Shown here: one piece after another, positions 14,324 through 56,074 of the stretch
Layout: every line of letters begins with the position of its first letter
How positions within the stretch are numbered: position 1 is the first letter of the stretch
Assembly: GCA_014360205.1 (NCBI GenBank)
Contig: JACIXZ010000001.1
Span: forward strand, 214,137-278,136
Source of the DNA: Tissierellales bacterium
GTDB taxonomy: Bacteria; Bacillota; Clostridia; Tissierellales; Tissierellaceae
Reading direction: 5' to 3'
DNA: 64,000 nt
Program-made: the position numbers and the translations under genes
Notes under the pieces: generated by a model
Seen by the model: only the letters and a program-made list of their open reading frames with translations
Told to the model about the DNA's origin: nothing
The model's database searches: none

Positions 14324-14330
14324 TAAAAAA

Positions 14331-14396: not shown

Positions 14397-14428
14397 CTTC
14401 ACGACCTCCTTTCTTTGTATCCTCATTT

Positions 14429-14457: not shown

Positions 14458-14492
14458 TAGATTATTATAAAATATTTTAATAATCGAAATAT

Positions 14493-15185: not shown

Positions 15186-15249
15186 ATTTATCACCTCCAT
15201 TGCAAAAAATATTATACCCTAAAATAAGTTTAAAATATATCGATATACA

Positions 15250-15262: not shown

Positions 15263-15337
15263 AAAAAATTTTAGTGATGATTATATAGTTAAAAACTGGG
15301 TAATACTAATATAGTTAGATTATAGGAGGAGATATAT

Positions 15338-15823: not shown

Positions 15824-15824
15824 T

Positions 15825-15855
15825 AAATAAGCGACCTTAAGGTCGCTTATTTATT
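15825..15855 (+). terminator. Rho-independent terminator after ferritin
   Basis: AAATAAGCGACC and GGTCGCTTATTT pair around TTAA, followed by a T-rich tail. The stem closely resembles the flagellin terminator at 1937-1968. Confidence 0.85.
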
Positions 15856-15952
15856 TACTACTATTTATTCTATGATATAATTATCATAGTTTATTAAATT
15901 ATATAGTAGTATGCCGATAGTATATATAGTTAAATTAAGGGAGGTTTTGATT

Positions 15953-16564: not shown

Positions 16565-16565
16565 T

Positions 16566-38082: not shown

Positions 38083-38106
38083 CCCTGGAAATTTCCAGGG
38101 TTTTTT
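38083..38106 (+). terminator. Rho-independent terminator after fabF
   Basis: CCCTGGAAATTTCCAGGG, a perfect 18-bp palindrome, followed by T6. Confidence 0.9.
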
Positions 38107-38118
38107 GTTTAGTATGTA

Positions 38119-38147
38119 TTGTATGTTACCAAATATAGTGCTATAAT
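38119..38147 (+). promoter_or_regulatory. Promoter of the polysaccharide locus
   Basis: TTGTAT (38119-38124), 17 bases, TATAAT (38142-38147, perfect -10). A small dyad TCGTT/AACGA follows near the start site. It drives the winged-helix regulator and possibly the whole downstream locus. Confidence 0.7.
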
Positions 38148-38186
38148 TTAATCGTTCAATAAACGAATAAAGAAATGGTGAAATCT

Positions 38187-38825
38187 ATGCAAATAAATAA
38201 CAATAACCCTTTTTTCACACCCACACTTAAATATAAAGAGATGATGCTTTTAGAGTACATAGAAAAACACCCAGACACTACCCAAAAAGAGTTGGGGAGA
38301 ATAATCGGCTCAGCAGCATCTATGATAAATCTCTATTTAGATGAAGGGGAAGCAAAAGGATATTTAAAAAGGGAGTATTTAAGTTCCAAAACTATAAAAT
38401 ATCACATAACAGCAAAAGGGAAAAAGAGAAAAAACTATTTAAATATATCATATATGCAAGAACTCATAAATTATTATATGCTTGCTAAAAAAGAACTAGA
38501 AGACTTTCTACTTAATGCAACTAGTAAAGGCTATCATAAAATAATACTTTACGGAGCAGGAGAAGTATGTGAAATAATACTAACCACACTTAAAAATTCA
38601 ACTAAATTAAACATCACTATACCTGCGATAATAGACGATGACTTAGAAAAAAGAGGAAAGACTATAGAAAATATCCCAATCATCTCAAAAACAGACTTAG
38701 ACAAATATCCGCATGATGCGATTTTTATATCAAGCTACACATTCGAAGAGCAGATAGCAAAAGAACTTAAAAATATAGGATACGAAGACGACAGGATAAT
38801 TAAGTTTTTTGATGGGAGAAGGTAG
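38187..38825 (+). CDS. Winged-helix regulator with C-terminal Rossmann (PglD-N/CoA-binding-like) domain
   Basis: About 212 residues. The N-terminal half (KEMMLLEYIEKHPDTTQKELGRIIGSAASMINLYLDEGEAKGYLKR region, about 20-90) is a winged helix of MarR/ArsR style. The C-terminal half (about 110-212) begins KIILYGAGEVCEII and continues AIIDDDLEKRGKTIENIPIIS, the Rossmann nucleotide-binding pattern seen at the N-terminus of PglD or CapD/PglF-type sugar enzymes. Similar fused regulators head exopolysaccharide loci in Firmicutes; it may sense a nucleotide sugar or CoA ester. Start ATG 38187 has GGTGA upstream; ATG 38175 is the alternative. Confidence 0.75.
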   Translation: MQINNNNPFFTPTLKYKEMMLLEYIEKHPDTTQKELGRIIGSAASMINLYLDEGEAKGYLKREYLSSKTIKYHITAKGKKRKNYLNISYMQELINYYMLAKKELEDFLLNATSKGYHKIILYGAGEVCEIILTTLKNSTKLNITIPAIIDDDLEKRGKTIENIPIISKTDLDKYPHDAIFISSYTFEEQIAKELKNIGYEDDRIIKFFDGRR

Positions 38826-38828
38826 GGG

Positions 38829-38944
38829 AGTGGAAAGTAGAAAGATTGAAAGTGGAAGGTTGAAAGTGGACAGTAGACAGTTGGACAGGAAAAGAATTAA
38901 GCAAAAGCTGAAAGTTGAAGGTTAAAAGCGGAAAGGGGAAAACC
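38829..38944 (+). repeat. Purine-rich short-repeat tract, left arm of an inverted repeat
   Basis: The 120 bases between the regulator and the four-helix-bundle gene consist of degenerate repeats of a GAAAGTTGAAAGTGGA-like unit. The last 34 bases (38911-38944) are an imperfect inverted repeat (about 28 of 34 matching by eye) of 39309-39342, downstream of the small gene. The gene's ribosome site lies inside this arm. Confidence 0.7.
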
Positions 38945-38947
38945 TTA

Positions 38948-39292
38948 TTGGAGAATTTGTTGGTTTGGAAGAAAGCTCATGAGCTCACTTTAATGGTGTA
39001 CGAGATTACAAAAGATTTCCCTAAGGACGAACTGTTTGGCTTAACATCCCAAATGCGAAGAGCATCAACTTCTATTCCATGCAATATAGTTGAAGGGAAA
39101 GCTAGAGGTTCAAGTAAAGATTTTAAGCGGTTTTTATTAATCGCAAGAGGCTCTTTGGAAGAGTTGAAGTACCAGATTTTACTATCTAAAGATTTAAATT
39201 ACATAGATGAAGAGAAAAACGATGAATTACAAGATTTCGCTAAAGAAGTAGGAAGACTTTTAAATGGATTGATGGTATCTCTGGATAAGTGA
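38948..39292 (+). CDS. Four-helix-bundle protein (23S rRNA intervening-sequence/Avd-like family)
   Basis: 114 residues, all-helical: LLVWKKAHELTLMVYEITKDFPKDE, FGLTSQMRRASTSIPCNIVEG and GSSKDFKRFLLIARGSLEELKYQILLSKDL are the hallmark segments of the S23/IVP family. These small proteins were first seen inside intervening sequences of 23S rRNA and are related to the Avd accessory protein of diversity-generating retroelements; function is mostly unknown. No reverse transcriptase is near. The start TTG 38948 (MENLLVWKK) suits the family; an ORF to 38915 would read into the repeat. The gene lies between inverted repeats inside a polysaccharide locus, as if an inserted unit. Confidence 0.88.
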   Translation: MENLLVWKKAHELTLMVYEITKDFPKDELFGLTSQMRRASTSIPCNIVEGKARGSSKDFKRFLLIARGSLEELKYQILLSKDLNYIDEEKNDELQDFAKEVGRLLNGLMVSLDK

Positions 39293-39297
39293 ATTTT

Positions 39298-39342
39298 TCC
39301 ACTTACCAATTTCCACTTTTCGCTTTCCACTTTCAACTTTTA
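39298..39342 (+). repeat. Pyrimidine-rich right arm of the inverted repeat
   Basis: Starts directly after the stop of the four-helix-bundle gene. Its reverse complement repeats GGAAA/GTGGAAAG units and matches 38911-38944. In RNA the two arms could pair and enclose the whole gene, as in 23S rRNA intervening sequences. Confidence 0.7.
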
Positions 39343-39372
39343 AATATATCTCAATGAAAGGAAACATCTACT

Positions 39373-40518
39373 ATGACTACAAACAATAGTAATACAAATA
39401 ACATTAATAAGAAAAAAATCTTCCTCTCCAGCCCCCACATGAGTGACGAAGGCTATGAGAAACAATACATAGAAGAAGCATTTGAAACAAATTGGGTAGC
39501 ACCACTAGGACCAAATGTAGATAGTTTTGAAACTGAATTTGCAACTAAAATAGGTTCTAGTTATGCTGCAGCACTATCATCTGGCACATCAGCAATTCAT
39601 ATGGCATTAAAAGCTGCAGGAGTTAAACCAAATGACAAAGTTTTTTGTCAAAGCTTAACTTTTTCTGCAACAGCAAATCCGATCATCTATGAAAATGCTG
39701 TTCCAATATTTATCGATAGCGATGATAAAACTTGGAATATGGATCCAAATGCATTGGAACATGCAATAAAAAAATATCCTGATACAAAATATGCTATAGT
39801 CGTACATCTATATGGATTATCAGCAGATTTAGACCCTATCATAGAATTATGTGAAAAACATGGAATAACATTAATAGAAGATGCAGCGGAATCCCTTGGA
39901 ACAACGTATAAAGGAAAACAAACTGGAACATTTGGCAAATTCGGAGTGTTTAGCTTCAATGGAAACAAGATAATCACCACATCAGGTGGAGGCATGCTTG
40001 TATCCGAAGATAAAGAGCGAATAGAAAAGGTGCGATTTTGGTCGACCCAAAGCAGAGAAAAAGAAAGACATTATGAACACAAAGAATTAGGATACAATTA
40101 CAGAATGAGCAATATTGTAGCTGGCATAGGGAGAGGTCAACTAAAAATTTTAGATGAAAGAGTAGCAAAAAAAAGATATATTTTTGAGTTTTATAAAGAA
40201 AACCTAGGAAATCTTGATGGCATAAATTTTATGCCAATAAATGATTGGAATAATCCAAACTGTTGGCTAAGTTGTCTAACATTAAATAGTAAAATAAAAC
40301 CTTTGGATATTATGACAGCATTAGAAAAAGAGAATATAGAATCAAGGCCAATTTGGAAACCAATGCATATGCAACCATTTTTTGAAAAGTATGATTATGT
40401 AGGTGGGAATGTGAGCAGAAACTTATTTGAAACTGGAGTTTGCTTACCATCAGACACAAAAATGACAAATGAGGATTTAGAAAGAGTATGTTCAATTATA
40501 AAGGAGCTGTGGAGTTAA
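39373..40518 (+). CDS. DegT/DnrJ/EryC1/StrS-family sugar aminotransferase
   Basis: PLP enzyme that aminates a nucleotide-linked keto-sugar, like PglE. 381 residues: [55 protein letters not shown] and [15 protein letters not shown] with the PLP Lys near 199. It would use a UDP-4-keto-sugar, perhaps from the CapE-type dehydratase or an enzyme elsewhere. Next gene, a sugar-phosphate transferase, starts 1 base later, as in pglE/pglC pairs. Confidence 0.93.
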
Positions 40519-40519
40519 G

Positions 40520-41209
40520 ATGCAAACTGAAACTAAAAAGGATGATTTCCCTTCAAACTGTCGAACTGACCAACTGACCATCTCAAATGGAATATACAAA
40601 AGATTTTTTAAAAGACCTTTAGATTTTTTGCTTTCTCTCATTGCATTGATTGTTTTAAGCCCACTACTGTTATTTATGGCTATATTAGTAAGAGTAAAGC
40701 TTGGTTCTCCTGTCATATTCAAACAACAAAGGCCAGGTTTAAATGAAAAGATATTTACGATTTACAAATTTAGAACTATGACAGATGAAAAAGACGAAAA
40801 TGGGGAGCTTTTACCTGATTCAGATAGATTAACTCCTTTTGGTAAATTTTTAAGATCTACATCAATAGATGAATTACCAGAACTAGTTAACATTTTAAAA
40901 GGTGATATGAGCATAGTCGGTCCAAGACCACTTTTAGTCGAATATTTACCATTATATAATGAAAAACAAAAACTTAGACACACTGTAAGGCCTGGGTTAA
41001 CAGGATTAGCACAAGTCAATGGAAGAAATGCAATTACCTGGGAAGAAAAATTTGATTTGGATGTGAAATATGCGAAAAATTTAACACTAAAGATTGATTT
41101 ATTTATTGTTTTTAGAACGATTGAAAAAGTAATAAAAAGAGAAGGAATAAATTCTAAAGACGATGTTACAATGGAATCATTCAAAGGTAATTTGGAGGTT
41201 AATAGATGA
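40520..41209 (+). CDS. Bacterial sugar transferase (initiating phosphoglycosyltransferase, PglC-like)
   Basis: Membrane enzyme that places the first sugar-phosphate on undecaprenyl phosphate. 229 residues. The core begins [26 protein letters not shown] (membrane segment), then [51 protein letters not shown] and [14 protein letters not shown]. The first about 28 residues are not typical of the family and are encoded by CAACTGACC-rich DNA resembling the short repeats at 38.8 kb. Start ATG 40520 has GGAG 5 bases upstream. Stop and next start overlap (ATGA). Confidence 0.94.
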
Positions 41210-42210
41210 AAGAACAAAACATACTTTTGTTGAGTGCTGGAAGAAGAATTGAACTTATTGAATTATTTAAAAAAGCTGCAAAAGAATTAAAAATTACTAG
41301 TAACATTGTTGCAGCTGACTGTGATGAATTAGCTCCAGGATTATATTTCGCGGATAAAAAATATGTAATTCCTAGGATTAGTAGTTCTGATTATATTGAT
41401 TCTATAATTAGCATTTCAAGAAAAGAAAATATATCATTAATAGTACCAACGATTGACACTGAATTAATAATATTATCACAAAACAAGAATTACATTGAAG
41501 AACAAACCAATTCAAGAGTATTGATTTCAAATGAATATGTTATAAGCACATGTAGAGACAAAGAAAAAACTAATACTTATCTTGAAGAACATGGATTTAA
41601 TTGTCCGAAATTATTCAATCAAAACGAATTAAAGACAAAAAAAATTACCTTTCCTTTGTTTATTAAACCAAAGTCAGGAAGTTCAAGCATTGATACTTTT
41701 AAGATAAATAGCATAAATGAATTAGAAGGTATTTTACCTAATATTAAGGATCCAATTATTCAAGAATTTGTTAGTGGAGTTGAATATACAGTAGATGCAT
41801 TATTAGATTTTGATAGCAAAATAATAACAATAGTTCCTCGCCAAAGACTATCAGTAAGGGGAGGAGAAATTATAAAAGGTAAAATATGCAAAGATCAACA
41901 TATAATTAACGAGGTTAAAAGATTGTTGGAATTATTGAATCCTATAGGGCCTGTGGCAGTACAACTTATTAAAGAATCTGAGACCAATAAGATAAAGTTT
42001 ATTGAGATTAATCCTCGATTTGGGGGTGGAGCTCCAATGAGTATATTAAGTGGTGCTGATTTTTGCAAATATATTTATATGGTTTTAGATGGGGATAAAA
42101 TTACATATAATGAAAACTATGAGGATGGATTATATTTTTTAAGATTTGATAAGACCATTTGCATTAATAATAACAAGGAGATTATTTATGATAAAAGCAC
42201 TTGTTTTTGA
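41206..42210 (+). CDS. ATP-grasp domain protein of the polysaccharide locus
   Basis: 334 residues, carbamoyl-phosphate-synthase-like ATP-grasp fold: [18 protein letters not shown], a pre-ATP-grasp domain, [19 protein letters not shown] and [23 protein letters not shown] (Mg-binding Glu/Asn). It would ligate a carboxylate to an amine, for example an amino acid on an amino-sugar. Starts in an ATGA overlap with the sugar transferase and its 3' end overlaps the HAD gene. The pair ATP-grasp plus HAD is a known module in capsule clusters. Confidence 0.88.
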
Positions 42211-42862
42211 TCTAGATGATACATTATATCCAGAGATTGAATATGTAAAAAGTGGCTTTCGTCATGTTTCAAAAATTATATCAAATTTATTCAATCGTGA
42301 CGAAAACATAGTGTACATACAATTAGAAAGATTGTTTGATTTGGACTCTAAAAATGTATTCAATAGGTGGTTTGATGAGAATAATGTGGATTACACCAAT
42401 GAAACTATACAATACATTGTATCAGAATATAGAAAACATAAACCAATTATAATGTATTATGATGATGTGCTACCAACATTAACAATATTAAAAGAGAAAA
42501 AATTAAAGACAGGAATTATTACTGATGGTTATGCTTTATCTCAGAAGCAAAAATTAGAAGCTTTAAAAGCATATGAACATTTTGATGAAATAATTATAAC
42601 AGATGAATTTGGGAAAGAATATTGGAAACCTAGTGAGTTGCCATTTAAATTAATCTCAGAACGGCTAGATGTGTATGCTAACGAGATGGTATATGTAGGA
42701 GACAATCCTGCAAAGGATTTTTTTATCAACAGTATTCTACCTATAATAACTGTACGCATAAATAGAGATGGAATTCATAAAAATAATAATTATTTAAATG
42801 ATGTAAAAGAAAATTATAAAGTAAATAATCTATTAGAAATATGGGAAATATTAAATATATAA
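42188..42862 (+). CDS. HAD-family hydrolase
   Basis: 224 residues with the HAD motifs [13 protein letters not shown] (nucleophile Asp), TGIITDGYALSQKQK (motif II Thr), the Lys of FGKEYWKPSELPF and VYVGDNPAKDF (motif IV). The class I cap points to a small-molecule phosphatase. The start is ATG 42188 after AAGGAG inside the preceding gene; the ORF start at 42146 is an in-frame extension without a ribosome site. Functionally paired with the ATP-grasp gene. Confidence 0.9.
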   Translation: MIKALVFDLDDTLYPEIEYVKSGFRHVSKIISNLFNRDENIVYIQLERLFDLDSKNVFNRWFDENNVDYTNETIQYIVSEYRKHKPIIMYYDDVLPTLTILKEKKLKTGIITDGYALSQKQKLEALKAYEHFDEIIITDEFGKEYWKPSELPFKLISERLDVYANEMVYVGDNPAKDFFINSILPIITVRINRDGIHKNNNYLNDVKENYKVNNLLEIWEILNI

Positions 42863-43092
42863 ATATTGCCATAAAATTATGAAGTTATTGATTACTTCTT
42901 ATATTTTAGGAATCTATCAGTATTTGAATTTAATTTATATTTAATAGTAGTTTGCTTATGAATATCTTTAATTCATATAATAAATAATTATTCGAAAATA
43001 TATTATATGAAAACAAGCTTATTCAATACTAACTATTAGAGCTAGATTTAAATTGTTATATTTATAACCATATAATCTTTTGCTTTATTTAG

Positions 43093-43326
43093 TTGCATAT
43101 TAAAAAAAAGAAAAAAGGGAAATATTTATATCTTGGTGGTGGACTTGGAGGTACAAAGGAAATTATACAAATTCAAAAAGTCTTTAATAAGAACTAGGAC
43201 AAATCGTTTTATATAGGCAGCAAAATATTTAAGAATAAAGTTTATGAACAACTAGTTGATATAATAGATAAAAATAATACTCTAGATAAAGAAAGTAAAT
43301 TTTTTCCTCTATATAGAGCTAGGTAG
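43093..43326 (+). pseudogene. Relic of a FemAB/GNAT-type acyltransferase (C-terminal part)
   Basis: Translation of this frame gives KGKYLYLGGGLGGTKEI, a later SFYIGSKIFKNKVYEQL and the end FFPLYRAR, interrupted by an in-frame TAG at 43195. LGGG...FKxxF...FYIGxKI...Y..L...FFPLYR is the C-terminal pattern of FemAB-like peptidyl or acyl transferases in capsule loci. The N-terminal two thirds are absent. Surrounding DNA (42863-43092 and 43327-43560) shows nothing coding and is extremely AT-rich. Confidence 0.55.
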
Positions 43327-43572
43327 TTTTATAAATAGGCTATTTATATAAAGATCTTTAAAAGCTAACAACTTATATAGTTTAAAATAAAGATTTATGA
43401 ATTTTTATGCATAAATTTGAAGATAGAATTATTTTAGCATTAACATTTGAGACCATAAATTTAATAGTGAAGTAATATATAGAATATAATTATTATAACG
43501 TAAAAAATATATAAAAACCGACATAATTTTTTTAAACATAAATTGTTAAATAACCCAATATGAGGTGATCTA

Positions 43573-44793
43573 TTGAATGTATTATTTTTAACATTATCAA
43601 ATATAGAAAACATTGAAGAAGGAGGTATTTATACAGATTTAATAAGAGAATTACGAGATAATGGGATAACAGTATATGTTGCATCACCAAGGGAAAGAAG
43701 ATATGGGGAACCTACTGAATTAATTAATAACGATAGTGTAAATATCTTGAAAGTGAAAACTGGTAATATTACAAAGACTAAATCATATATAGAAAAAGGA
43801 ATTTCTACTGTTATGATAGAGTATCAATTTTTGAGGGCGATCAAAAAATATTTTGGCGATATTAAATTCGATCTTGTCATGTATTCTACACCACCAATCA
43901 GTTTTGTAAGAATAATTAAATATTTAAAGGATAAAAATCATTGTAAAACATATTTAATTTTAAAAGATATATTTCCACAAAATGCAGTTGATATTGGTGT
44001 GCTAAAAGAACATGGGTTAATCTGGAGATATTTTAGAAGAAAAGAAACTAATTTATATAAGGTCTCTGATTATATAGGATGCATGTCTTATGGAAATGTT
44101 GAATACATAAAAAACAATAATAAATTGGATGGAAAACAAATTGAAATTTTTCCTAATGCTATAAAACCGGTCCGAATTCAAGAGCCATCTATAAAAAATT
44201 GTGATATTTTAATTAAATATGGGATTCCTAAAGGGAAAGTCATATTTATTTATGGAGGGAATCTAGGAAAACCTCAAGGTATAAGTTTTATTCTAAGTGT
44301 TATTGATAATTTTTATAGGGTTGACAATGGTTTTTTATTAATAGTAGGTTCTGGTACTGAGTATTATAATATTAATAAACACATAAACGAAACTGATCCT
44401 AAAAATGTTAAATTAATTGAATGGATGCCTAAAAACGAATATAATGAAATACTGAAATGTTCTGATGTTGGGCTTATTTTTTTAGATCATAGGTTTACTA
44501 TTCCTAACATACCATCAAGATTATTATCTTACTATGAATATTCAAAACCTATATTAGCTGCTACAGATCCTAATACAGATTTAAAAGAAATAATTGCAGA
44601 ATCACAATCTGGGTTTTGGTGTGAAAGTGATGACATAGAAAAGTTTATTGAATACGCCAATAAAATGTCAAACAATCAAAAAATGATTCAACAATTAGGA
44701 GAAAATGGGCGCAGATATCTAGAAGAAAATTTTAACATTGAAAAAACCATAAAAATTCTAATTAACCATTTAATGGAGGGAAATAATGTTTAA
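43573..44793 (+). CDS. Glycosyltransferase, family 4 (WbuB-like)
   Basis: 406 residues, GT-B fold. The N-terminal domain has EEGGIYTDLIRELRDNGITVYVASP; the C-terminal domain has VIFIYGGNLGKPQGISFILSVI, KLIEWMPKNEYNEIL and GLIFLDHRFTIPNIPSRLLSYYEYSKPILAATD. WbuB-type enzymes transfer N-acetyl-L-fucosamine and often sit beside the three UDP-L-FucNAc genes, as here. The start is TTG 43573 after GAGGTGAT. The last 8 bases overlap capE. Confidence 0.88.
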   Translation: MNVLFLTLSNIENIEEGGIYTDLIRELRDNGITVYVASPRERRYGEPTELINNDSVNILKVKTGNITKTKSYIEKGISTVMIEYQFLRAIKKYFGDIKFDLVMYSTPPISFVRIIKYLKDKNHCKTYLILKDIFPQNAVDIGVLKEHGLIWRYFRRKETNLYKVSDYIGCMSYGNVEYIKNNNKLDGKQIEIFPNAIKPVRIQEPSIKNCDILIKYGIPKGKVIFIYGGNLGKPQGISFILSVIDNFYRVDNGFLLIVGSGTEYYNINKHINETDPKNVKLIEWMPKNEYNEILKCSDVGLIFLDHRFTIPNIPSRLLSYYEYSKPILAATDPNTDLKEIIAESQSGFWCESDDIEKFIEYANKMSNNQKMIQQLGENGRRYLEENFNIEKTIKILINHLMEGNNV

Positions 44794-45805
44794 AGATAAA
44801 ACTTTATTGATAACAGGCGGTACAGGTTCATTTGGGAATGCTATACTCAATAGATTTTTAGATACCGATATTAAGGAAATAAGAATTTTTTCTCGTGATG
44901 AGAAAAAACAAGATGATATGAGAAAAAAATACAAAAATTCTAAAATAAAATTTTATATTGGTGATGTGAGAGATATTTCTAGCATCAAAAATGCTATGCA
45001 TGATGTAGACTATGTGTTTCATGCTGCAGCATTAAAACAAGTTCCTTCATGTGAATTTTTTCCGGTTGAGGCCGTTAAAACTAATGTCTTAGGAACTGAT
45101 AATGTCTTATCTGCAGCAATAGAGTATGAAGTAAAAAAAGTGATATGTTTGTCAACTGATAAAGCTGCTTATCCTATAAATGCTATGGGTATATCAAAAG
45201 CAATGATGGAAAAAGTCCTCATTGCAAAATCCAAAACAGTAGACCCAAATAAAACTACTATTTGTGGAACTAGATATGGAAATGTAATGGCTTCAAGGGG
45301 TTCAGTAATACCTTTATTTGTTGATCAAATAAAAAAAGGAGAAGCATTAACAGTTACAAATCCTAAAATGACAAGATTTTTAATGAGTTTAGAAGAAGCT
45401 GTAGAATTAGTTGTATATGCATATCAAAATGCGGAAGCTGGGGATATAATGGTTCAAAAAGCGCCAGCATCCACAATAGGTGATTTAGCTCAATCTTTAA
45501 AGGAATTATTCAATGTAAATAATAAAATCAAAATTATTGGAACAAGACATGGAGAAAAGCAATATGAAACATTACTTACTAAAGAAGAAAAAGTAGTAGC
45601 AGAAGATTTAGGAGATTACTACAGAGTACCAGCAGATAAAAGAGATCTAAACTATGAAAAGTATTTTACTGAAGGATATAAAGAGATAGAGATATCCGAT
45701 GAGTACAATTCAAATAACACAAAAATTTTAAATAAAGATGAAATCAAAGAAAAACTTCTAAAATTACCGTATATACAAAATGAATTGGAAGGCTGGATAC
45801 GATGA
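44786..45805 (+). CDS. capE: UDP-N-acetylglucosamine 4,6-dehydratase/5-epimerase CapE
   Basis: First step from UDP-GlcNAc to UDP-N-acetyl-L-fucosamine. 339 residues, short-chain dehydrogenase fold: LLITGGTGSFGNAIL (NADP), HAAALKQVPSCEF and STDKAAYPINAMGISKAMMEK, where Met replaces the usual catalytic Tyr in the M-x3-K pair typical of CapE/FlaA1-like inverting dehydratases; GTRYGNVMASRGSVIP follows. capF and capG follow with tight overlaps. Confidence 0.93.
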   Translation: MFKDKTLLITGGTGSFGNAILNRFLDTDIKEIRIFSRDEKKQDDMRKKYKNSKIKFYIGDVRDISSIKNAMHDVDYVFHAAALKQVPSCEFFPVEAVKTNVLGTDNVLSAAIEYEVKKVICLSTDKAAYPINAMGISKAMMEKVLIAKSKTVDPNKTTICGTRYGNVMASRGSVIPLFVDQIKKGEALTVTNPKMTRFLMSLEEAVELVVYAYQNAEAGDIMVQKAPASTIGDLAQSLKELFNVNNKIKIIGTRHGEKQYETLLTKEEKVVAEDLGDYYRVPADKRDLNYEKYFTEGYKEIEISDEYNSNNTKILNKDEIKEKLLKLPYIQNELEGWIR

Positions 45806-46911
45806 AAATATTAATTACAGGAGCAAATGGGTTTATAGGTAAAAACTTAATTTCTGAGTTAAAAAACAATGGATTTAATGAACTATTTTTATGCACAAGA
45901 GAAACTACAGACACTGAATTAAATGAATTCACTCAAAAATGCGATTTTGTTTTTCATCTAGCAGGAGTAAATAGACCAAAAGATAAATCAGAATTTTATC
46001 AAGGAAACTATAACTTTACTACATTATTATTAGAATTATTAAAGAAAAATAATAACAAAGCTCCGATATTGATGTCATCATCGATACAAGCAGAGTTGGA
46101 TAATGATTATGGAAAGAGTAAAATGCTAGCAGAAAATACAGTATTAGAGTATTCAAAAGAAAACAGTATCAAAGCCTACATTTTTAGATTACCAAATGTT
46201 TTTGGAAAATGGAGTAGACCAAATTATAATTCTGCAATAGCTACATTTTGCTATAATATATCTAGAGACATTGAAATTCAAGTAAATAATCCTAATACAG
46301 AGCTAAGATTAGTTTACATTGATGATGTTGTAAAGGAATTTATAAATGTATTAACAGAAAAAAAAATACATGAAGAGGTCTATTGCAAAATAGAAAAAGA
46401 ATATGGAAAAACATTAGAAGAAATAACTAATTTATTATATTCTTTTAAAAACTCTAGAGATAGTTTATATTTACCTGATTTTCAAGATGAATTTACGAAA
46501 AAACTATATAGCACTTATCTTAGTTTTTTGCCTGAAGAAGATTTTTCTTATTCTTTAAATAGCAATGTTGACAATAGAGGCTCTTTTACAGAATTTATAA
46601 AAACAGATGATAGAGGACAAGTTTCTGTAAATGTTACAAAACCAGGGATTACAAAAGGAAATCATTGGCATCATACTAAAACTGAAAAATTCCTTGTAGT
46701 TTATGGTGAAGCTATAATTAAGTTTAGAAACATACATTCAGACAAGATGATTGAATACAAAGTAACAGGAAAAAATTTAGAAGTGGTGGATATTCCACCA
46801 GGCTATACCCACAACATAACTAATATTGGAACAACAGATTTAATAACAATAATGTGGGCAAATGAATGTTTTGACAAGAACAACCCCGACACATTTTATA
46901 TGGAGGTTTAA
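45802..46911 (+). CDS. capF: CapF-type bifunctional epimerase/reductase with cupin domain
   Basis: Second step in UDP-L-FucNAc synthesis. 369 residues: N-terminal Rossmann domain (MKILITGANGFIGKNLIS; FHLAGVNRPKDKSEF; LMSSSIQAELDNDYGKSKMLAE) and a C-terminal cupin domain (about 250-369) with metal-ligand motif GNHWHHTKTEKFLVVYGEA. This domain pair is specific for CapF/FnlB. ATGA overlap with capE. Confidence 0.93.
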   Translation: MKILITGANGFIGKNLISELKNNGFNELFLCTRETTDTELNEFTQKCDFVFHLAGVNRPKDKSEFYQGNYNFTTLLLELLKKNNNKAPILMSSSIQAELDNDYGKSKMLAENTVLEYSKENSIKAYIFRLPNVFGKWSRPNYNSAIATFCYNISRDIEIQVNNPNTELRLVYIDDVVKEFINVLTEKKIHEEVYCKIEKEYGKTLEEITNLLYSFKNSRDSLYLPDFQDEFTKKLYSTYLSFLPEEDFSYSLNSNVDNRGSFTEFIKTDDRGQVSVNVTKPGITKGNHWHHTKTEKFLVVYGEAIIKFRNIHSDKMIEYKVTGKNLEVVDIPPGYTHNITNIGTTDLITIMWANECFDKNNPDTFYMEV

Positions 46912-46912
46912 C

Positions 46913-48037
46913 ATGAGTAAATTAAGAGTAATGACCGTAGTAGGAACAAGACCTGAGATAATTAGACTATCTTCAGTAATTAATAAACTCGACAAATCAA
47001 AAGCAATAGAGCATATTTTAGTTCATACAGGTCAAAACTATGACTATGAGCTAAATGAAGTTTTCTTTAAAGACTTAAATCTAAGAAAACCTGATTATTT
47101 TTTAAATGCAGCTACAGGAACTCCAGTTGAAACAATTGGGAATATACTTATAAAGATAGATAGTGTATTAAATGAAGTTAAACCAGAAGCGTTCTTAGTA
47201 TTGGGAGATACAAACAGCTGTTTATGTGCTATTGCAGCAAAAAGAAAGCAGATACCAATCTTTCATATGGAAGCTGGAAACAGATGCTTTGATCAAAGAG
47301 TACCAGAGGAAACAAATAGAAAAATAGTGGATCATATCTCAGATATAAATTTAACATATAGCGATATAGCTAGAGAATATTTAATATCTGAAGGGATTCC
47401 AGCAGATAGAATTATAAAAACTGGCAGTCCTATGTTCGAAGTACTTAACTCAAAAAAACAAGACATTGAGAAATCAGATGTATTAAATAGATTAGGACTT
47501 GAAGAAGGAAAGTATTTTGTAGTATCATCTCATAGAGAAGAAAATATAAACTCAGAAACTAATTTTTTAGATTTGGTTGTGAGTCTTAATGCAGTAGCAG
47601 AAAAATATAAGCTACCATTGATAGTAAGTACACATCCTAGAACTAGAAAAATGATAGAATCTAAAGGTATTGAATTTAATCCTTTAGTTAAAACACTAAA
47701 GCCTTTAGGATTTAATGATTATATAAAACTTCAGATTAAGGCCAAAGCTGTACTTAGTGACAGCGGAACAATAAGTGAAGAAGCATCGATACTAGGATTA
47801 AAAGCATTAAATATTAGACAAGCACATGAAAGGCCAGAAGCTATGGAAGAAGCAACCGTAATGATGGTTGGGCTTAAGAAAGAAAGAATTCTTCAGGGAT
47901 TAGAAATATTGGAGGCTCAGGATAAAGATACATTGAGATTAGTCACTGATTATAGTATGCCTAATGTATCTGAAAAGGTACTTAGAATAATATTAAGCTA
48001 TACTGATTATGTGAATAGAGTTGTTTGGGGGAAATAG
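46913..48037 (+). CDS. capG: UDP-N-acetylglucosamine 2-epimerase-type enzyme CapG
   Basis: Third step, 2-epimerisation to UDP-N-acetyl-L-fucosamine. 374 residues of the non-hydrolysing epimerase family: MTVVGTRPEIIRLSSVI, HTGQNYDYELNEVFF, HMEAGNRCFDQRVPEETNR and the late [20 protein letters not shown]. The start ATG 46913 follows GGAGG; the ORF start at 46862 lies within capF. Its 3' third (about 450 bases) is repeated as a decayed copy at 51009-51460, and both copies are followed by a glycosyltransferase start one base after the stop codon. Confidence 0.94.
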   Translation: MSKLRVMTVVGTRPEIIRLSSVINKLDKSKAIEHILVHTGQNYDYELNEVFFKDLNLRKPDYFLNAATGTPVETIGNILIKIDSVLNEVKPEAFLVLGDTNSCLCAIAAKRKQIPIFHMEAGNRCFDQRVPEETNRKIVDHISDINLTYSDIAREYLISEGIPADRIIKTGSPMFEVLNSKKQDIEKSDVLNRLGLEEGKYFVVSSHREENINSETNFLDLVVSLNAVAEKYKLPLIVSTHPRTRKMIESKGIEFNPLVKTLKPLGFNDYIKLQIKAKAVLSDSGTISEEASILGLKALNIRQAHERPEAMEEATVMMVGLKKERILQGLEILEAQDKDTLRLVTDYSMPNVSEKVLRIILSYTDYVNRVVWGK

Positions 48038-48038
48038 A

Positions 48039-49040
48039 ATGAAGATAATGGTTTTTGATGTTGCTGCAGAAAGTGGTGGAGCATTAACAATACTAAATCA
48101 ATATTATGATTCTGCAATAAAAGATAAAGATAATGAATGGATTTTTGTTGTGAGTACTCCTGAGCTAAAAGAGACTGATAATGTTAAAGTTCTGAACTAT
48201 CCTTGGATTAAAAAAAGTTGGTTTCATAGACTGTATTTTGATTATTTAATAGCAAATAAATTAGTAAAAAAAAATAAAGTTGAAGAAATTTTATCTTTAC
48301 AAAATGTTGTTGTCTCCAAAGTAAAAGTTAAGCAGACACTATATTTACATCAGCCACTACCTTTTATTGAAAAAAGATATGGATTAATTGAAAATTTTAA
48401 ATTTTGGTTATATCAGAATATCATTAGCAAAATAATTTATAAATCAATAAGAGAAGCGGATGAGGTAATTGTTCAAACAAAATGGATAATGGAAGCAGCT
48501 ACCGAAAAAGCAAATGTAAAAAAAGATAAGTTTATTTTGAAGCAACCAGAATTAAATGTTTCAATCAAAACACTATATACACCAGACAAAAATAGTGAAA
48601 ACTTGTTTTTTTATCCTGCTAGTGGACTTACTTACAAAAACCATGAAGTTATTGTAAATGCATGTAAACTTTTAAAACACAAAGGGATAAGCAATTATAA
48701 AGTTCTTTTCACATTAAAAGGTGATGAAAACAAGCATATTAAAAAGCTTAAACAGATAGTATTAGATGAAAATTTGCCAATAGAATTTATAGGTACAATC
48801 GATATAGATACTGTTTATGAGTATTATTCCAAATCAATACTAATTTTTCCTTCTTACATTGAAACTTTTGGATTGCCAATGTTAGAAGCTAAAATGCATG
48901 AAACTCCAATATTAGCTTCTGACTGTGCTTTTTCTAAAGAAATATTGGATGGATATGAGAAGGTAGAGTTTTTTGACCCATTTGATCATCAAAGTTTAGC
49001 TAATATGATGTTAAGAAACATAATAAAGTGTAGTTTTTAA
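48039..49040 (+). CDS. Glycosyltransferase, family 4
   Basis: 333 residues, GT-B fold: MKIMVFDVAAESGGALTILNQYY, a central VIVQTKWIMEAATEKANV, and the donor-site region FFYPASGLTYKNHEVIVNACKLL, EFIGTIDIDTVYEYYSKSILIFPSYIETFGLPMLEA. The C-terminus (LANMMLRNIIKCSF) is somewhat shorter than usual, perhaps from truncation near 49040. The start ATG 48039 lies 1 base after capG. The acceptor and sugar are unknown. Confidence 0.87.
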   Translation: MKIMVFDVAAESGGALTILNQYYDSAIKDKDNEWIFVVSTPELKETDNVKVLNYPWIKKSWFHRLYFDYLIANKLVKKNKVEEILSLQNVVVSKVKVKQTLYLHQPLPFIEKRYGLIENFKFWLYQNIISKIIYKSIREADEVIVQTKWIMEAATEKANVKKDKFILKQPELNVSIKTLYTPDKNSENLFFYPASGLTYKNHEVIVNACKLLKHKGISNYKVLFTLKGDENKHIKKLKQIVLDENLPIEFIGTIDIDTVYEYYSKSILIFPSYIETFGLPMLEAKMHETPILASDCAFSKEILDGYEKVEFFDPFDHQSLANMMLRNIIKCSF

Positions 49041-49053
49041 AGAAAGGGCATAA

Positions 49054-49588
49054 ATGGTGTTAATTAATATGATTGAGTCTAAAAAAAACAAATATTCAAA
49101 TATAGTTTTTTTGCTTTTATCAATTCTAATTTTTCTAGTTTTGTTTTCTCCGACGGTATTTCAATATGTTAAATTAGTACCTTTAACCTTATTATTCGCA
49201 TTATCTATATTGAATATTCTAAAAAAAAATGAGTTTACCGCTCCATCCTAAAGTAGCGACATGGATTTTATTGTATATCACATTTAATTTTTTATTTTTG
49301 ATAAAAGGTACTTATAACAACTTAGATGTGTTTATGCAGTTAGCACCCGTTAATATATTGTGGCCATTAGTATATACATTTGCATTTATTATACCTTCGA
49401 GTAAAATAGAAAAATTTGAGTTATCGAATGTTTTTATTATATCTACATTGTTTATCGAAATATATATATTATACCTATATCTGAATTTCATTGGTATTTT
49501 GCCAGACACTTTATTATTAAATTTACCTTTAGGTCAAATGATTAATTATAATTTGGTTATATTAATTTCTTTTGGCTTAGAAATCTAA
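49054..49588 (+). pseudogene. Truncated, frameshifted O-antigen polymerase/ligase-like membrane protein
   Basis: Two hydrophobic reading frames join across a run of nine A at 49221-49229. Frame 1 (49054-49251) encodes two membrane segments; frame 2 continues from the A run (LPLHPKVATWILLYITFNFLF...) to a stop at 49588. One base fewer in the run would give a continuous product of about 178 residues. Full-length polymerases have about 400 residues, so the gene is also cut short, just where decayed transposase sequence begins. Wzy-like identity is inferred from hydrophobicity and place. Confidence 0.65.
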
Positions 49589-49599
49589 TAACAGGTAAA

Positions 49600-50860
49600 A
49601 ATATAGAATTAGGGTTTTCTTGGATATTTTGAATAACCTATTGGACTAATAGATAATAGGTTGCCGCATAAATGAAGTTGAAATATTAAGAATACTGACA
49701 ATATGCATGACAAATGGCAACTTATTCTATACAGGCCATGATGACGTAGGTAATTTTAGTAAACAACCAAAGAATTACACTATAATTAGCACCATCATTT
49801 GTATCATAAACACAGAGAACAAGGCAAGAGTCTTTAAAGGTGCAGTTAGAGCATTCAAATTTTTGTTTAAAAGGTCGATACTCTTTATATACGGCATTAT
49901 CATTAGTCAAGCTCATAAATTGAGTAGGATTGAAGTCCCAATCCTTCTCTATTTAAATTGCTGAGTAACTAAAGGATAAAGCTAGAAACAGCATATAAAA
50001 ATTTTAAAGCACTAGTAGGGAATTCTTTAAATTTATCTAAAGCCATTCTCAGTGTAATTGTACAAGGAGCTACATAACGATTTTTAGAAACTTGTAAACA
50101 AGAATATAGCTAGAAACATCATCCATAATGAGCCAAACATAGCCTTCGAGTCCTCTAATTCTGATTTAGATTTCATCAGTAGCTAAATTAATTAGAAGGA
50201 TTGTAATTGAATTTATCCACGAAGGCTTGACAATAACTGAAGTAGTTCTAGCATAATTAGTAACCATTGTGTGTGAAATATTCATAGTATGAATTCCATA
50301 CATAGCTTCATCACTTTACAAAGAGAAAGGAAAGGTTAACATAACAAGTTAAATAAAGCCTAATAATTAGAGTATTATTCTTTTCATAGTTAAAATTTAG
50401 TATAAGAAGGCATCTCATTATAATACATAGAAGAGAAATCTAGCCGTTAATTCATGCTAAATATTATGAATCTTGTATTTAACTTTTTCACTAGAGCATA
50501 AGTGCATAGGAAATTACTTTCGTAATATGAACAATTTTTATTGACGCATTTATGAACAATAAAATTTTTCAGCATTGTTTAATAGTCAAAGCATGAGTAC
50601 AATAATGATAAATAAGTATTAATTGGAAGTTTTTTGCTCATCTGCAATAAAAGTATGATAACAGACTTTGCATTGGGATTGGCCTTCACTACCACTGGTA
50701 TCAAAAATGTACTGATGAGGAGCAGTACAAATAGGGTAAAAAATTCTGGAGATAGATTTTTCAATATGCTGTTAAACTGGATTTAAAGGCACGTCGTAAT
50801 TTCAAAGATAGTATTCAAAGAGAAAACTATAATCCTACTAAATAAAATTTCGATTTTTTT
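49600..50860 (-). mobile_element. Decayed insertion-sequence remnants (DDE transposase)
   Basis: No intact ORF, but minus-strand translation gives recognisable transposase pieces. Near 50780-50630 is a zinc ribbon (PICTAPHQYIFDT, QCKVCYHTF). Near 50300-50230 is the helix segment ISHTMVTNYARTTSVIVKP. Near 50190-50090 are DDE core pieces (ATDEI, then after a stop RIRGLEGYVWLIMDDVSS). A further piece at about 49950-49800 (NPTQFMSLTNDNAVYKEYRP, FECSNCTFKDSC) may belong to a second element. Multiple stops and frameshifts show long decay. It separates the truncated polymerase from the capG duplicate. Confidence 0.65.
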
Positions 50861-51008
50861 GGTTATTGTAAGCTTACCTACTTTAAATTTCTAATCAGTA
50901 GGACTTTTAGAATCATCAAAAGTCCATTGTTAAAGCGAATATATTTTGTTATAAATAAAGTGAATAACCAATTGTTAAACTAAATAGATTTTTTTATATA
51001 TTTAATAT

Positions 51009-51460
51009 TCTTAATGCAGTAATAGAAAAATGAAAGCTAATATTGGTAGTATGTACGCATCTAGAGCTAGAAAAATAATAGACCCTAAAGAATTAGAATT
51101 TAATCCTTTAGTTAAAATACTAATGTTTTCAGGATTTAATGATTATAGAAATTACAGATTTAAGCAAAAGTTTTAATTAGTGACAGTGGAACAATCAGTG
51201 AAGAAGCATCAATACTAGGATTAAAAGTATTAAATATTAAACAAGCATATGAAAGGCCAGAAGCTATGGAAGAAACGCCAGTTATGATGGTGGGTCTTAA
51301 AAAAGAAAGAATTGTTCAGTGATTAGAGCTATTAGAGATTCAAGAAAAAGATACATTGAGATTATTAGGTGATTATAGTATGCCTAATGTATCTGAAATG
51401 GTGCTTAAAATAATATTAAGCTATACCGATTATGTCAATAGATTAGTTTGGGGAAAATAG
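51009..51460 (+). pseudogene. Partial second copy of capG (3' third), decayed
   Basis: Aligns base for base with 47584-48037 of capG, with clear similarity over about 450 bases (for example [14 protein letters not shown] and YERPEAMEE) but several substitutions, in-frame stops (TGA near 51031 and 51319) and small indels. It ends in the same TAG and is followed by ATG one base later, as in the intact copy. It marks a recombination or duplication boundary rather than a functional gene. Confidence 0.88.
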
Positions 51461-51461
51461 A

Positions 51462-52678
51462 ATGAGGGTCTTACAAATTAATTCAGTGTGTGGCATTGGA
51501 AGTACAGGCAGAATTGCTACTGATATTCATAATATCTTAATTGAACAAGGACATGAAAGTTACATAGCTTTTGAAAGAGATAAACCTAAAAATTGTGAAA
51601 ATGCTATTAGAATTGGGAATGATATTGATTGTTACAAACATGTAGTAAAAACAAGATTATTTGATAGACATGGTTTTGGTTCAAAAAAGCCACAATTGAA
51701 TTTATCGAAAAAGTAAAAGACTTAGACCCTGATATAATCCATTTGCATAATATTCATGGATACTATATTAATATAGAATTACAATTTAACTATCTAAAGG
51801 AAGCTAATAAACCTGTTATTTGGACTTTACATGATTGCTGGCCTTTTACGGGTCATTGCGCCTATTTTGATTATATTGGTTGTGATAAATGGAAAATGGG
51901 CTGTTATGATTGCCCTCAAAAGAATAAATATCCATCTAGCTTATTTTTGGACATGTCAAAGAAAAATTACATAGAAAAAAAGAGAATATTTAATCAGATT
52001 GGGAATATAACAATTGTAACTCCATCAGAATGGCTAGCAAAACTTGTAAAAAATTCTTTTTTAAATAAATATGATATAAGAGTAATAAATAATGGTATTA
52101 ATTTAGATATATTTAAACCTACTATGAGTGATTTTAGAGTCAATTACAATATTGAAGATAAATTCATCATATTAGGAGTTGCTAATATATGGGATGAAAG
52201 AAAAGGGCTGAATTATTTTAAACAACTTTCTGACATAATTGATGATAGTATAAAAATAGTTTTGGTTGGACTAAGTGAAGAACAAAAGAATAATTTACCT
52301 AAAAACATTTTAGGAATAAACAAAACAAATAGCATCCAAGAATTAGCACAAATATATTCAAGTGCAGATGTTTTTGTTAATCCAACATTGGAAGATAATT
52401 TTCCTACAACAAATTTAGAAGCTCTATCTTGTGGAACACCAGTTATTACATTTAATACAGGCGGTAGTCCTGAGTGTGTAGATAATTCATGTGGATTTGT
52501 CGCAGATAAGGGAAATATAAATGATTTGCTTAAGTTAATACTTGAAATTAAATATAATGGGAAAGAAATATATACAAAACATTGTAGAAAAAGGGCTGAA
52601 GAAAAATACAGCAGGGATGATAGATATTTGGACTATATTGATTTATATAATAAAAAAAATTTACTAAGGAATGACTAA
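51462..52678 (+). pseudogene. Glycosyltransferase split by a -1 frameshift at A AAA AAG
   Basis: Frame 1 (51462-51716) begins MRVLQINSVCGIGSTGRIATDIHNIL, typical of WcaC/WbaZ-like family 4 enzymes. At 51683-51689 it reads A AAA AAG and runs to a stop. Slipping back one base there continues in the frame that holds LDPDIIHLHNIHGYYIN, PVIWTLHDCWPFTGHC, VTPSEWLAKLVKNS, ADVFVNPTLEDNFPTTNLEALSCGTPVITF and ends at 52678. Together about 405 residues, full length for the family. Either a one-base deletion in the A run inactivated it, or the slippery heptamer allows some full-length product. Confidence 0.8.
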
Positions 52679-52680
52679 AG

Positions 52681-53814
52681 ATGTATTATATTATTTTTTT
52701 TATATTAGTTTCACTTTGTTTAGGTTATGATAAAAATCATATTAAATTGAAGACCATGTTCATATTATTATTATTATTATCTTTTTTTAGATATGGTGTT
52801 GGAGCTGATTACTTTGCTTATTCATACTTATATAGCAGATTAAATAGCTCAATAATAAAAGAACTAGTATCTGGGTTAGACAATCAAGAAGTACTATTCA
52901 GACTGTTAGGTTCTAGTATAAAATCATTAGGAACTCCCTATCAGTTATATCTCATAATATTAGCATCGATAAATCTTTACTTTATCTATAAATTATGCAA
53001 AAAATATAGTTTAAATCCAAGAATATCGATTTTGATTTATTACTCATTCTATTATTTTGTTTGGACATTCAGTGGGCTTAGACAAGGGCTAACTATATCA
53101 ATAGGACTCTACTATTTATTAGAAGCTTTAGAAAAAGAAAGAATAAATAAATTAATTATAGTTACTATAATTTTGACATTTATTCATAGTTCTTCGATTA
53201 TTTTATTGCCGATGTATTTATTTTTAAAAAAAGATCATTCAAAGAGCATTATGATTTTACTATTGATTTTTAGTATTGGATTTGCACTATTACCACTAAA
53301 TATAGTTATAAATAGGTTTATAGGAGTCCCCATACTTAACAGAGTTGCACCTTATTTAGTTAGTGATGCCAGATTAATAAATATTTTTGATTTTCAAACC
53401 TTTGGGAGATTGTTTTTTGTAGGAATAATTTTATATTATTACGATAACAATTTTTCTATAAATTCAACTAGATTATTTTCAAAGAAACTCAACAACATGT
53501 ATTTGATAAGTATTATTTTATATTTTTTTCTAAAATCATCTGAGCTAACTGCTTCCAGAATAGCGATTTACGGAAGTCTTATAATTATTATTCAGTTAAG
53601 CAATTTCTTATACACATATAATAATAATAAGAATCGGATTTTATATTTTATATTTTTGATATTTATATCTTTTTTATACTTGAATAAGGAATTATTAGCT
53701 ATGAAATCGAGTTCAGGATTGATAACTGATTTTAATATATATGTTCCTTACACAAACATATTTAATAAAGAAAATTTTGTATTTATCAATCAATACTTTA
53801 AATTTTTACAATGA
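52681..53814 (+). CDS. EpsG/Wzy-family polysaccharide polymerase
   Basis: 377 residues with about ten hydrophobic segments. The motif FRYGVGADYFAYSYLY near the N-terminus and FSGLRQGLTISIGLYYLLEAL in the middle are signatures of the EpsG family, which polymerises repeat units on the outer face of the membrane. Starts 2 bases after the split glycosyltransferase. It may supply the polymerase function lost from the truncated gene at 49.1 kb. Confidence 0.85.
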   Translation: MYYIIFFILVSLCLGYDKNHIKLKTMFILLLLLSFFRYGVGADYFAYSYLYSRLNSSIIKELVSGLDNQEVLFRLLGSSIKSLGTPYQLYLIILASINLYFIYKLCKKYSLNPRISILIYYSFYYFVWTFSGLRQGLTISIGLYYLLEALEKERINKLIIVTIILTFIHSSSIILLPMYLFLKKDHSKSIMILLLIFSIGFALLPLNIVINRFIGVPILNRVAPYLVSDARLINIFDFQTFGRLFFVGIILYYYDNNFSINSTRLFSKKLNNMYLISIILYFFLKSSELTASRIAIYGSLIIIIQLSNFLYTYNNNKNRILYFIFLIFISFLYLNKELLAMKSSSGLITDFNIYVPYTNIFNKENFVFINQYFKFLQ

Positions 53815-54132
53815 TGTTATAACGTAAAGACATTGTTTTAAAATTTAGAAAGACATCAAAAAATTAAAAAGGTAAAGTATTCTATATAGTGGTTTTGTTT
53901 ATATTATCTGCTTGGTTTTTAATATACAGAACCTTATTTTTGATCATAATTACACACTGCTGACAAATATTATTTATTTAAAAAGCACTAAGATTAACAA
54001 GTTTTTGATAGATATATAAATAAGTTGACTCTGTAAACTAAACGTAAAAAATAGTACATCGTTTTATGTAATTGTATTAAAATATATTAAATTTCACCCT
54101 TATAATGATACTTGAGGGAATTTCAAAAAATA
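53815..54132. other. Gene-free, AT-rich stretch after the EpsG-like gene
   Basis: About 320 bases without an ORF, promoter or hairpin that I can support. It probably belongs to the insertion-sequence scar that follows. Confidence 0.4.
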
Positions 54133-54690
54133 TTAAGCTAAAATGAACAAAACTAAGCTATAAGAAGATATTTTGTTATCCTTATCAGTTAGGCTTAATA
54201 CAACAATTTGAGCTGGAGTTAGTTCGTTAAAAGATAGATGAGGTCTATTGAAATTATAAAAGAAGAATAACATACTAATTAAATTAATTGTATAGTCATA
54301 TGAATCGAAACTTTGCTTAGTTTTATACAAGGACAACATATACGTTTAAAGTCAGTTTTTCCAATAAGTTTAGACATAGATGCAAATAGAATAGAATTTG
54401 GTTTAGCAACGAGTAGTGAATGATTACACTTTTTAACATAGCATCTAAAATTAGAGTAAAAATCATAATTGCGTTGAGTAGTAATTGCTTTATTATAACC
54501 ATGGTAACAAGGGTAATTTTGCTTCTGTTTAGAAACTGGACTATCAGGTGCAATTTGATTGTTACAGTTATGACAGAGATATTTATGATGACCATATTTA
54601 TCTTAGCTATATCTATAAAACGAATGATTATTGTTGCACTTTGGATATTTATTGATACAATTCTTTGCATAAGGACATCATCCTTTCTAG
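54133..54690 (-). mobile_element. Internally deleted transposase remnant (zinc-ribbon DDE type)
   Basis: Minus-strand translation from about 54680 gives zinc-binding pieces (DKYGHHKYLCHNCNNQIAPD, KQNYPCYHGYNKAITT, NFRCYVKKCNHSLLVAKP, MSKLIGKTDFKRICCP). From 54339 it gives the C-terminal end (YNFNRPHLSFNELTPAQIV), characteristic of integrase-core transposases. The catalytic middle is missing. The large plus- and minus-strand ORFs drawn here are shadows. This is a second insertion-element scar in the locus. Confidence 0.65.
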
Positions 54691-54790
54691 GAGGTATTTG
54701 ATTTACTGCAAAAATATTGTAGCATAGAGAGCTTGGAGTCTTAAATTTTCATTTAAGGTTACAAAACGAATAAATTTAAATGGAGGTATT

Positions 54791-55936
54791 ATGAATATGG
54801 GAGATAACCATCTAAAATACGTTTGTTTTTATGATTGTTTTGAGAATTATAAAGAAAATAGGAATTATTTTTTATCTGCTACTAATAAGGTAGATTATAT
54901 AATTAGTTCACTAGTAAAAAATGGATATAAAGTTAAAATAGTATCCCCTAGCTGGACAAACAATAAATTTGTGCGTTATAAAGGAAAGAAGCATAAAATT
55001 TCCGAAAACGTAATGTTACAAACATTTTTTACAATTGATTTTGGCAAAGCAAAAGGGATAAAACAATTTGTTTCATTAATACAATTGTTTGTGTATTTAC
55101 TAAAGAATACTAAGAAAGATGAACCAATAATAGTTTATCATTCAATAGCATTGATATTACCAATAATATTGGCAAAAAAAATTAAGAAGTTTAGTTTGAT
55201 TTTAGAGGTTGAGGAAATATACAATCATGCCGTACAGTTATCAGTGTACAAAAAAAAGTTAGAGGATTATATTTTTACTTTAGCTGATAAATTTATTTTT
55301 TCCACGACATACTTAAATGAGACTATTAATGATTCGAAACCATATGTAGTAGTAAATGGAGTTTATAAAAAAGAGGAAAAAATAGTTCATAAAAAGGATG
55401 ATGAAAAGATTAACGTAGTATATTCAGGAACATTTGATCTTAACAAAGGTGGTGCATTGTCAGCAATTCATGCAGCTAAATTTCTAACAGACATTTATTG
55501 CTTACATATTTTAGGATTTGGCTCAGATGATGAAATAAAAGAAATAACAACTGAAATAAATAATATACAGGATAATTCTGAAGCAACAATTAAATTTGTT
55601 GGATTATTAAGGGGAAAAGAGTATATTGAATATCTACAATCATGTGATATAGGATTAAGTACACAATATAACAATGCTAGATTTAACGATACTTCTTTTC
55701 CATCTAAAATATTGACATATATGGCAAACGGATTAAGCGTTGTATCTTCACGAATAAAAACAGTTGAGGAATCAAGTGTTGGTAAATATTTATATTATTA
55801 TGATAACAATGATCCGGAAGAAATAGCACAAACAATTATGTCTGTGGATCTAAATTCAAAATTAAATACACAAGAAATTTTAGACTATCTTGATAATGAA
55901 TTTACTCAGAACATATTCAAGCTATTAAATCAGTAA
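54791..55936 (+). CDS. Glycosyltransferase, family 4-like
   Basis: 381 residues: KYVCFYDCFENYKENRNYFLSATNKVDYIISSLVKNGYKVKIVSPSW at the N-terminus (given here only as family flavour), then VVYSGTFDLNKGGALSAIHAAKFL, EATIKFVGLLRGKEYIEYLQ and GLSTQYNNARFNDTSFPSKILTYMANGLSVVSSRI in the donor-binding half. It lacks the usual EX7E spacing but follows GT-B logic. Start ATG 54791 after GGAGGT (ATG 54797 is the alternative). It is isolated between scars, last gene of the polysaccharide locus. Confidence 0.8.
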   Translation: MNMGDNHLKYVCFYDCFENYKENRNYFLSATNKVDYIISSLVKNGYKVKIVSPSWTNNKFVRYKGKKHKISENVMLQTFFTIDFGKAKGIKQFVSLIQLFVYLLKNTKKDEPIIVYHSIALILPIILAKKIKKFSLILEVEEIYNHAVQLSVYKKKLEDYIFTLADKFIFSTTYLNETINDSKPYVVVNGVYKKEEKIVHKKDDEKINVVYSGTFDLNKGGALSAIHAAKFLTDIYCLHILGFGSDDEIKEITTEINNIQDNSEATIKFVGLLRGKEYIEYLQSCDIGLSTQYNNARFNDTSFPSKILTYMANGLSVVSSRIKTVEESSVGKYLYYYDNNDPEEIAQTIMSVDLNSKLNTQEILDYLDNEFTQNIFKLLNQ

Positions 55937-56074
55937 TACTATTAAACATATCTAATCATCTGTATAATAAATTGAATAGTGAAACAAGAAATGAAAATTC
56001 TAGATCTAGCATGTAGGTAAACTATAAATATTAATGCAGGGGTTATTAATTATGAGTTAAATAGTTTGTAATTA

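Follow-up and report, generated by a model that had tools for sequence, protein, structure and literature searches.

What event left a polysaccharide locus with the end of one gene present twice, each time in front of a different glycosyltransferase? The case lies in a 64,000-nucleotide stretch of a Tissierellales bacterium genome (contig JACIXZ010000001.1; hereafter the window, with positions counted from its first letter), which shows, in order, an intact capE-capF-capG head, a glycosyltransferase gene (GT1), a cut-off presumed polymerase gene (wzy1), insertion-sequence debris, a dead capG end (psi-capG), a second glycosyltransferase gene (GT2), and a second polymerase gene (wzy2) (Table 1; loci and genomes used for comparison carry L and G numbers). 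The original prediction held that recombination at capG had replaced or added the module downstream. On the evidence below, we consider it reasonably probable that the locus is the scar of an additive joining of modules at capG.

Table 1. Features of the variable region and its left border, with window positions, strand, and basis of assignment
Feature	Position	Strand	Basis
DegT-type aminotransferase and bacterial sugar transferase, conserved left border	39373..41209	+	PF01041, PF02397; 95% DNA identity in same-genus G001
GT0, glycosyltransferase upstream of capE	43573..44793	+	Pfam Glycos_transf_1
capE, UDP-GlcNAc 4,6-dehydratase/5-epimerase-like	44786..45805	+	TIGR04130 FnlA 558 bits, cut-off 730; PF02719
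capF, 4-keto reductase-like	45802..46911	+	NF047837 452.7 bits, cut-off 500
capG copy 1, intact UDP-GlcNAc 2-epimerase	46913..48037	+	PF02350 E 6.7e-94; TIGR00236 over cut-off
GT1, open glycosyltransferase gene, left module	48039..49040	+	PF00534
wzy1, 5' part of membrane-protein-like gene, presumed polymerase	49054..49588	+	Open reading frames; one frame break; ends inside insertion-sequence relic
Insertion-sequence relic, internal part only, DDE (IS240/IS66-like) transposase	49565..50965	-	75% to L134 positions 398-1815
psi-capG (copy 2), 5'-truncated, decayed	50982..51460	+	Alignment; three in-register stops; two one-base deletions
GT2, right-module glycosyltransferase, broken once	51462..52678	+	PF13692/PF00534 for 51743-52675
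wzy2, EpsG-family polymerase, open frame	52681..53814	+	PF14897 E 1.2e-40
Second debris, transposase-like by eye only	53812..54790	-	Short matches to L116/L118, contig C10 of same genome
GT3, glycosyltransferase, right end of variable region	54791..55936	+	PF13692

The two capG ends fall into a single gapped blastn alignment, 47584-48042 against 51009-51465, with 391 of 459 positions identical (85%), two gap positions, and an E value of 4e-149; similarity of copy 2 extends weakly to about 50982 (74% over 80 bases), and the copies are spaced 3423-3425 bases apart. The prediction that about 450 bases of the capG 3' end recur 3.4 kb downstream was therefore right in coordinates and description, as was its statement that each copy stands one base before a different glycosyltransferase—both end in TAG-A-ATG, with the next ATG at 48039 for GT1 and at 51462 for GT2. 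The pairwise comparison that it proposed favoured kinship of the copies over resemblance to other capG genes: the copies share 85% identity, whereas no other locus in the comparison exceeded 77% with copy 2 or 83% with copy 1. When psi-capG is divided into nine steps of 50 bases, the fifth and the last two are 88-92% identical and the other six 80-84%, without a clear trend. Within the source genome, a draft assembly of 78 contigs, close capG matches are confined to copy 1 and two pieces of copy 2, the two other matches being 25% and 33% identical. We also examined the idea that the capG end is kept as the carrier of the next gene's start signal; with a crude pattern, a Shine-Dalgarno-like word was present in 22 of the 46 loci whose next start lies between -20 and +10 of the capG stop.

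Phylogenetic placement agrees with the alignment. With 84 outside capG ends—those of 88 offered loci that passed the length and identity limits—copies 1 and 2 were recovered as sisters (FastTree local support 0.991), and support was 0.989 with 12 outside sequences, dropping to 0.844 when codon positions 1 and 2 alone were used. Copy 2, which retains only about the last 40% of capG and is damaged by the stops and deletions listed in Table 1, is dead. Polarised against the three nearest outside genes, parsimony counts assigned 18/14/12 unique changes on codon positions 1/2/3 to copy 2 and 2/2/13 to copy 1 (Fisher P 0.001, with 6 sites ambiguous); since the changes of copy 2 are without codon-position bias and those of copy 1 are biased, copy 2 drifted and copy 1 did not. 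A distance model with bootstrap, run under three settings, put the share of post-split time that copy 2 spent under selection at medians of 0.12, 0.01, and -0.08, with upper 95% bounds of 0.62, 0.55, and 0.48 and loose lower bounds of about -1.2. These counts and this model were used in place of per-position maximum likelihood, which gave copy 2 a branch of 0.183/0.130/0.498 by codon position, not cleanly neutral, and which was set aside because third positions were saturated in most branches. The lack of codon-position bias points to death near the separation of the copies, and copy 2 probably died at or soon after parting from copy 1; so early a death would in turn mean that the recombining capG genes were close relatives.

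What stands behind capG elsewhere bears on whether the gene is a border. In the cap5/cap8 loci of Staphylococcus aureus, a type-specific centre lies between common genes; the capE-capF-capG head is common there, while the downstream genes differ by type. We know of no truncated capG copy in those loci. In the window, CapG scores above the TIGR00236 cut-off, and CapE and CapF match FnlA and NF047837 over nearly their full length, under the cut-offs; the head is presumed to consist of UDP-L-FucNAc genes. A scan of named genomes yielded at least 585 relatives, of which the best 80 loci (71-86% identity) were kept, and the next gene was scored mechanically as the first open frame of at least 150 codons near the stop, with families drawn at 35% identity. 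Among the 73 scorable loci of these best 80 of at least 585, capG is followed by 36 gene families, the next gene being GT2-type in 9 and GT1-type in 2. The closest complete capG genes in the same family (L006, L007, L008) have next frames that differ from one another and from both GT1 and GT2. A GT1-type gene directly follows capG in L012, L038, and L052, and in Proteiniclasticum ruminis (L060) capG is succeeded by a GT2-type gene and then by a wzy2-like polymerase, as in the window; the arrangements capG-GT1 and capG-GT2 thus both occur separately in other genomes. The proposed comparison for alternative modules after capG thus does show them, and the role of capG as the border of the presumed UDP-L-FucNAc head is supported by the 36 follower families; that copy 2 is a truncated sister of copy 1 is what recombination at capG would produce.

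The same-genus genome G001 extends this picture to the flanks. It matches the window at 93-95% on the left and 78-83% on the right, with only matches of less than 100 bases between them, so that conserved flanks around a variable centre, as in module exchange of the capsule or O-antigen type, were found with this one relative. Taken together, the varied capG followers and the kept flanks of G001 mark capG as a border in a modular polysaccharide locus in which two modules were joined. The capG matches of G001 and G002 are only 30-32% identical, and GT3 had no match at E 0.001 in these two other genomes of the genus. Between the same flanks, G001 carries different genes (L143, contig C72, 40000-59999, at 6636-17422 of that piece), several of whose frames look short or broken.

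We then asked whether the genes behind psi-capG share its decay. A one-base indel next to a run of A (51683-51688) breaks GT2 once; the gene's two pieces are 58% and 61% identical to L035, and its counterpart is one open frame in L035, L043, and L067. The 84-codon first piece alone matched no Pfam family, and the longer piece had strong matches (E <1e-40, 48-56% identity) in 3 of 149 other genomes of the order. Had GT2 and wzy2 been decaying like psi-capG, 14.8 in-frame stops would be expected in them; they contain no stop at all, whereas every one of 2000 simulated runs produced at least one (for the longer piece of GT2 alone, the probability of no stop was 0.004). Because of these missing stops, GT2 and wzy2 seem to have remained in use well past the death of the capG fragment, which suggests that the second module was kept in use. 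Of the two outcomes first proposed, plain replacement is not supported, because neither gene shows decay comparable to that of psi-capG, and adding a module fits the sequences better than replacing one.

The left module is less tidy. Inspection by eye and a place behind GT1 that matches L142 and L052 are our grounds for presuming that wzy1 is a polymerase gene; profile and relative searches with the fragment returned no family over cut-off and no convincing relative. Its frame breaks at a run of nine A (49221-49229), and it contains no stops where the decay simulation expects 3 (P 0.04). Lacking stops, wzy1 may have been cut after psi-capG died, which suggests more than one event; a single-event reading leaves these missing stops unexplained.

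Between the modules lies the insertion-sequence relic. The full element, as judged by comparing element copies, spans about 155-2030 in L134, a locus of another genome, where the transposase frame is open; the window relic lacks both ends, roughly 240 and 215 bases being missing, and the same-genus copies L119 and L144 retain the left end. In its intact form the element encodes a DDE transposase that has zinc-ribbon-like parts (PF13610; IS6 was the best NCBIfam model, at a score below cut-off); the X-masked translation of the relic itself had no match in Pfam. About 55 bases within the relic (49669-49723) match the intact element in inverted orientation at 89%. At its right end, insertion-sequence homology stops at 50965 and capG homology starts at about 50980-51010, with no microhomology at the joint resolvable after decay. 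Relic-only changes at codon positions 1 and 2 number 121 of 657, compared with 32 of 302 in psi-capG (P 0.002), or 30 of 284 when psi-capG is also cleared of near-gap columns (P 0.003), the relic and psi-capG counts resting on different reference sets. This excess suggests that the relic was dead before the scar formed; it is probably older than the scar, although a relic that had diverged further before dying would show the same excess.

The most economical account of these observations is that two closely related loci, with different followers behind a common capG, were joined. Two such loci would have recombined, with one side of the exchange homologous and the other an illegitimate joint, near 50965-51010, from the inside of the dead insertion sequence to the inside of capG. 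This illegitimate joint would have deprived the second capG of its 5' part, after which the capG fragment would have drifted neutrally, while GT2 and wzy2 would have stayed under selection, fed by the UDP-sugar from the intact head. The homologous anchor could be capG or the downstream flank, and the left module may have entered in front of the right one, or the right one may have been attached behind the left. A change of polymer structure is inferred to be likely.

The strongest competitor, which we nonetheless regard as unlikely, starts from a tandem of two complete modules, both of them including capG if not all of capE-capF-capG; a later deletion, with one end in the insertion sequence and the other in the second capG, then took out what lay between. 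A relic without both ends that adjoins the interior of capG is what a deletion joint would leave, and the wzy1 fragment, which looks younger than psi-capG, hints at several steps. A long-lived functional second capG is, however, not favoured by the little or no selected period of copy 2 after the split, although upper bounds of 0.48-0.62 leave room for a shorter-lived one. Nor did the best 80 of at least 585 loci contain a second capG-like piece of at least 45% identity (up to 10 kb on each side, less at contig ends). Among 59 other relatives searched, no close partial capG containing stops appeared: the stop-bearing piece of G050 is 30% identical, and the 81% identical piece of G019 is open and cut by a contig end. 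A plasmid search gave four records, three from Enterococcus faecalis that match capE to capG and one from Escherichia coli that matches part of capG. Against the additive joining itself stands that no strain with the unfused arrangement was found among the genomes compared.

That the insertion sequence itself made the exchange, by recombination between two of its copies in different loci, is improbable. The relic does sit exactly between the two modules, but both element ends are missing, even though same-genus copies keep the left one, and the relic seems to have died before the scar formed, or to have diverged more before its death. The second debris, which separates wzy2 from GT3, is not the same element, having no significant match to L134; it matches no Pfam family. 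We therefore rejected the insertion sequence as the main agent, on the mapping of its ends as missing at the joints and on the decay comparison that suggests an older relic. The transposase debris named in the original prediction is real insofar as 49565-50965 is an insertion-sequence relic with 75% identity to an element with an open frame; a part in the exchange does not follow, and a relic without both ends and apparently older than the scar is more likely a passenger than an agent. That the capG end was simply duplicated in place, with GT1 or GT2 inserted later and no exchange of modules, would account for the sister copies but is very improbable, since both copies meet their followers at the same natural stop-start joint, and these followers stand behind capG in other genomes, so that duplication fails to explain the two follower sets.

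Comparison with published systems places the scar among events of a familiar kind. The nearest published case that we found is the capsule island of Neisseria meningitidis, where Regions D and D' contain an intact galE1 and a 5'-truncated galE2 that has lost its first 402 nucleotides and kept its last 615; its authors suggest that illegitimate recombination ran into the epimerase gene as the island was taken up (PMC5349592). Both cases have a sugar-nucleotide epimerase gene at a capsule-locus border, with one intact copy and one 5'-truncated remnant; galE2, however, sits in an inverted repeat region that borders an acquired island, whereas psi-capG is in direct orientation, inside the locus, and fused to a second module. 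A second parallel comes from the immunity arrays of Vibrio cholerae type VI secretion (T6SS), which arise when effector-immunity modules are displaced: a conserved stretch anchors the incoming module and the resident 3' part is shifted downstream, in a process that the authors propose to be akin to homology-facilitated illegitimate recombination (PMC5361080). The capG scar resembles what is proposed there, but the genes are unrelated, and where those arrays retain an immunity gene or an effector 3' end, the window retains a dead capG end together with a still-conserved glycosyltransferase-polymerase pair. The literature on capsule-locus remnants, covered by titles and abstract openings with few subscription papers, yielded no description of a capG scar of this kind. 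The class of mechanism is already known, and the capG scar is a new case of it.

A decayed piece of capG here marks the junction of two sugar-polymer gene sets in one chromosome, an ordinary yet unusually readable trace of how bacterial surface coats are remodelled. The locus appears to have been caught part-way through that remodelling, with the neutral capG fragment serving as a rough clock for the event, and this clock, set beside the conserved GT2 and wzy2, makes adding versus replacing testable from sequence. Much more speculatively, and with little confidence, we suggest by analogy with the T6SS immunity arrays that modules might repeatedly be joined on, one after another, at the capG 3' end, with older ones displaced downstream yet still used; if so, surface polymers would evolve by stacking of modules as well as by swapping.

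Several smaller features accompany the locus. Genes related to GT0 stand directly before capE in several loci (for example, L039, L048, and L052). In the 0.7 kb gap before GT0, 43162-43317 is a short relic, 52 codons long and 37-46% identical, of the end of a 352-residue protein found in L058 and L141. A genome search for two flippase families gave no match inside the window, including 38000-56000, the genes being on other contigs. Finally, the frame breaks of wzy1 and GT2 both lie at or beside runs of A, as expected from slipped-strand switching or from sequencing error.
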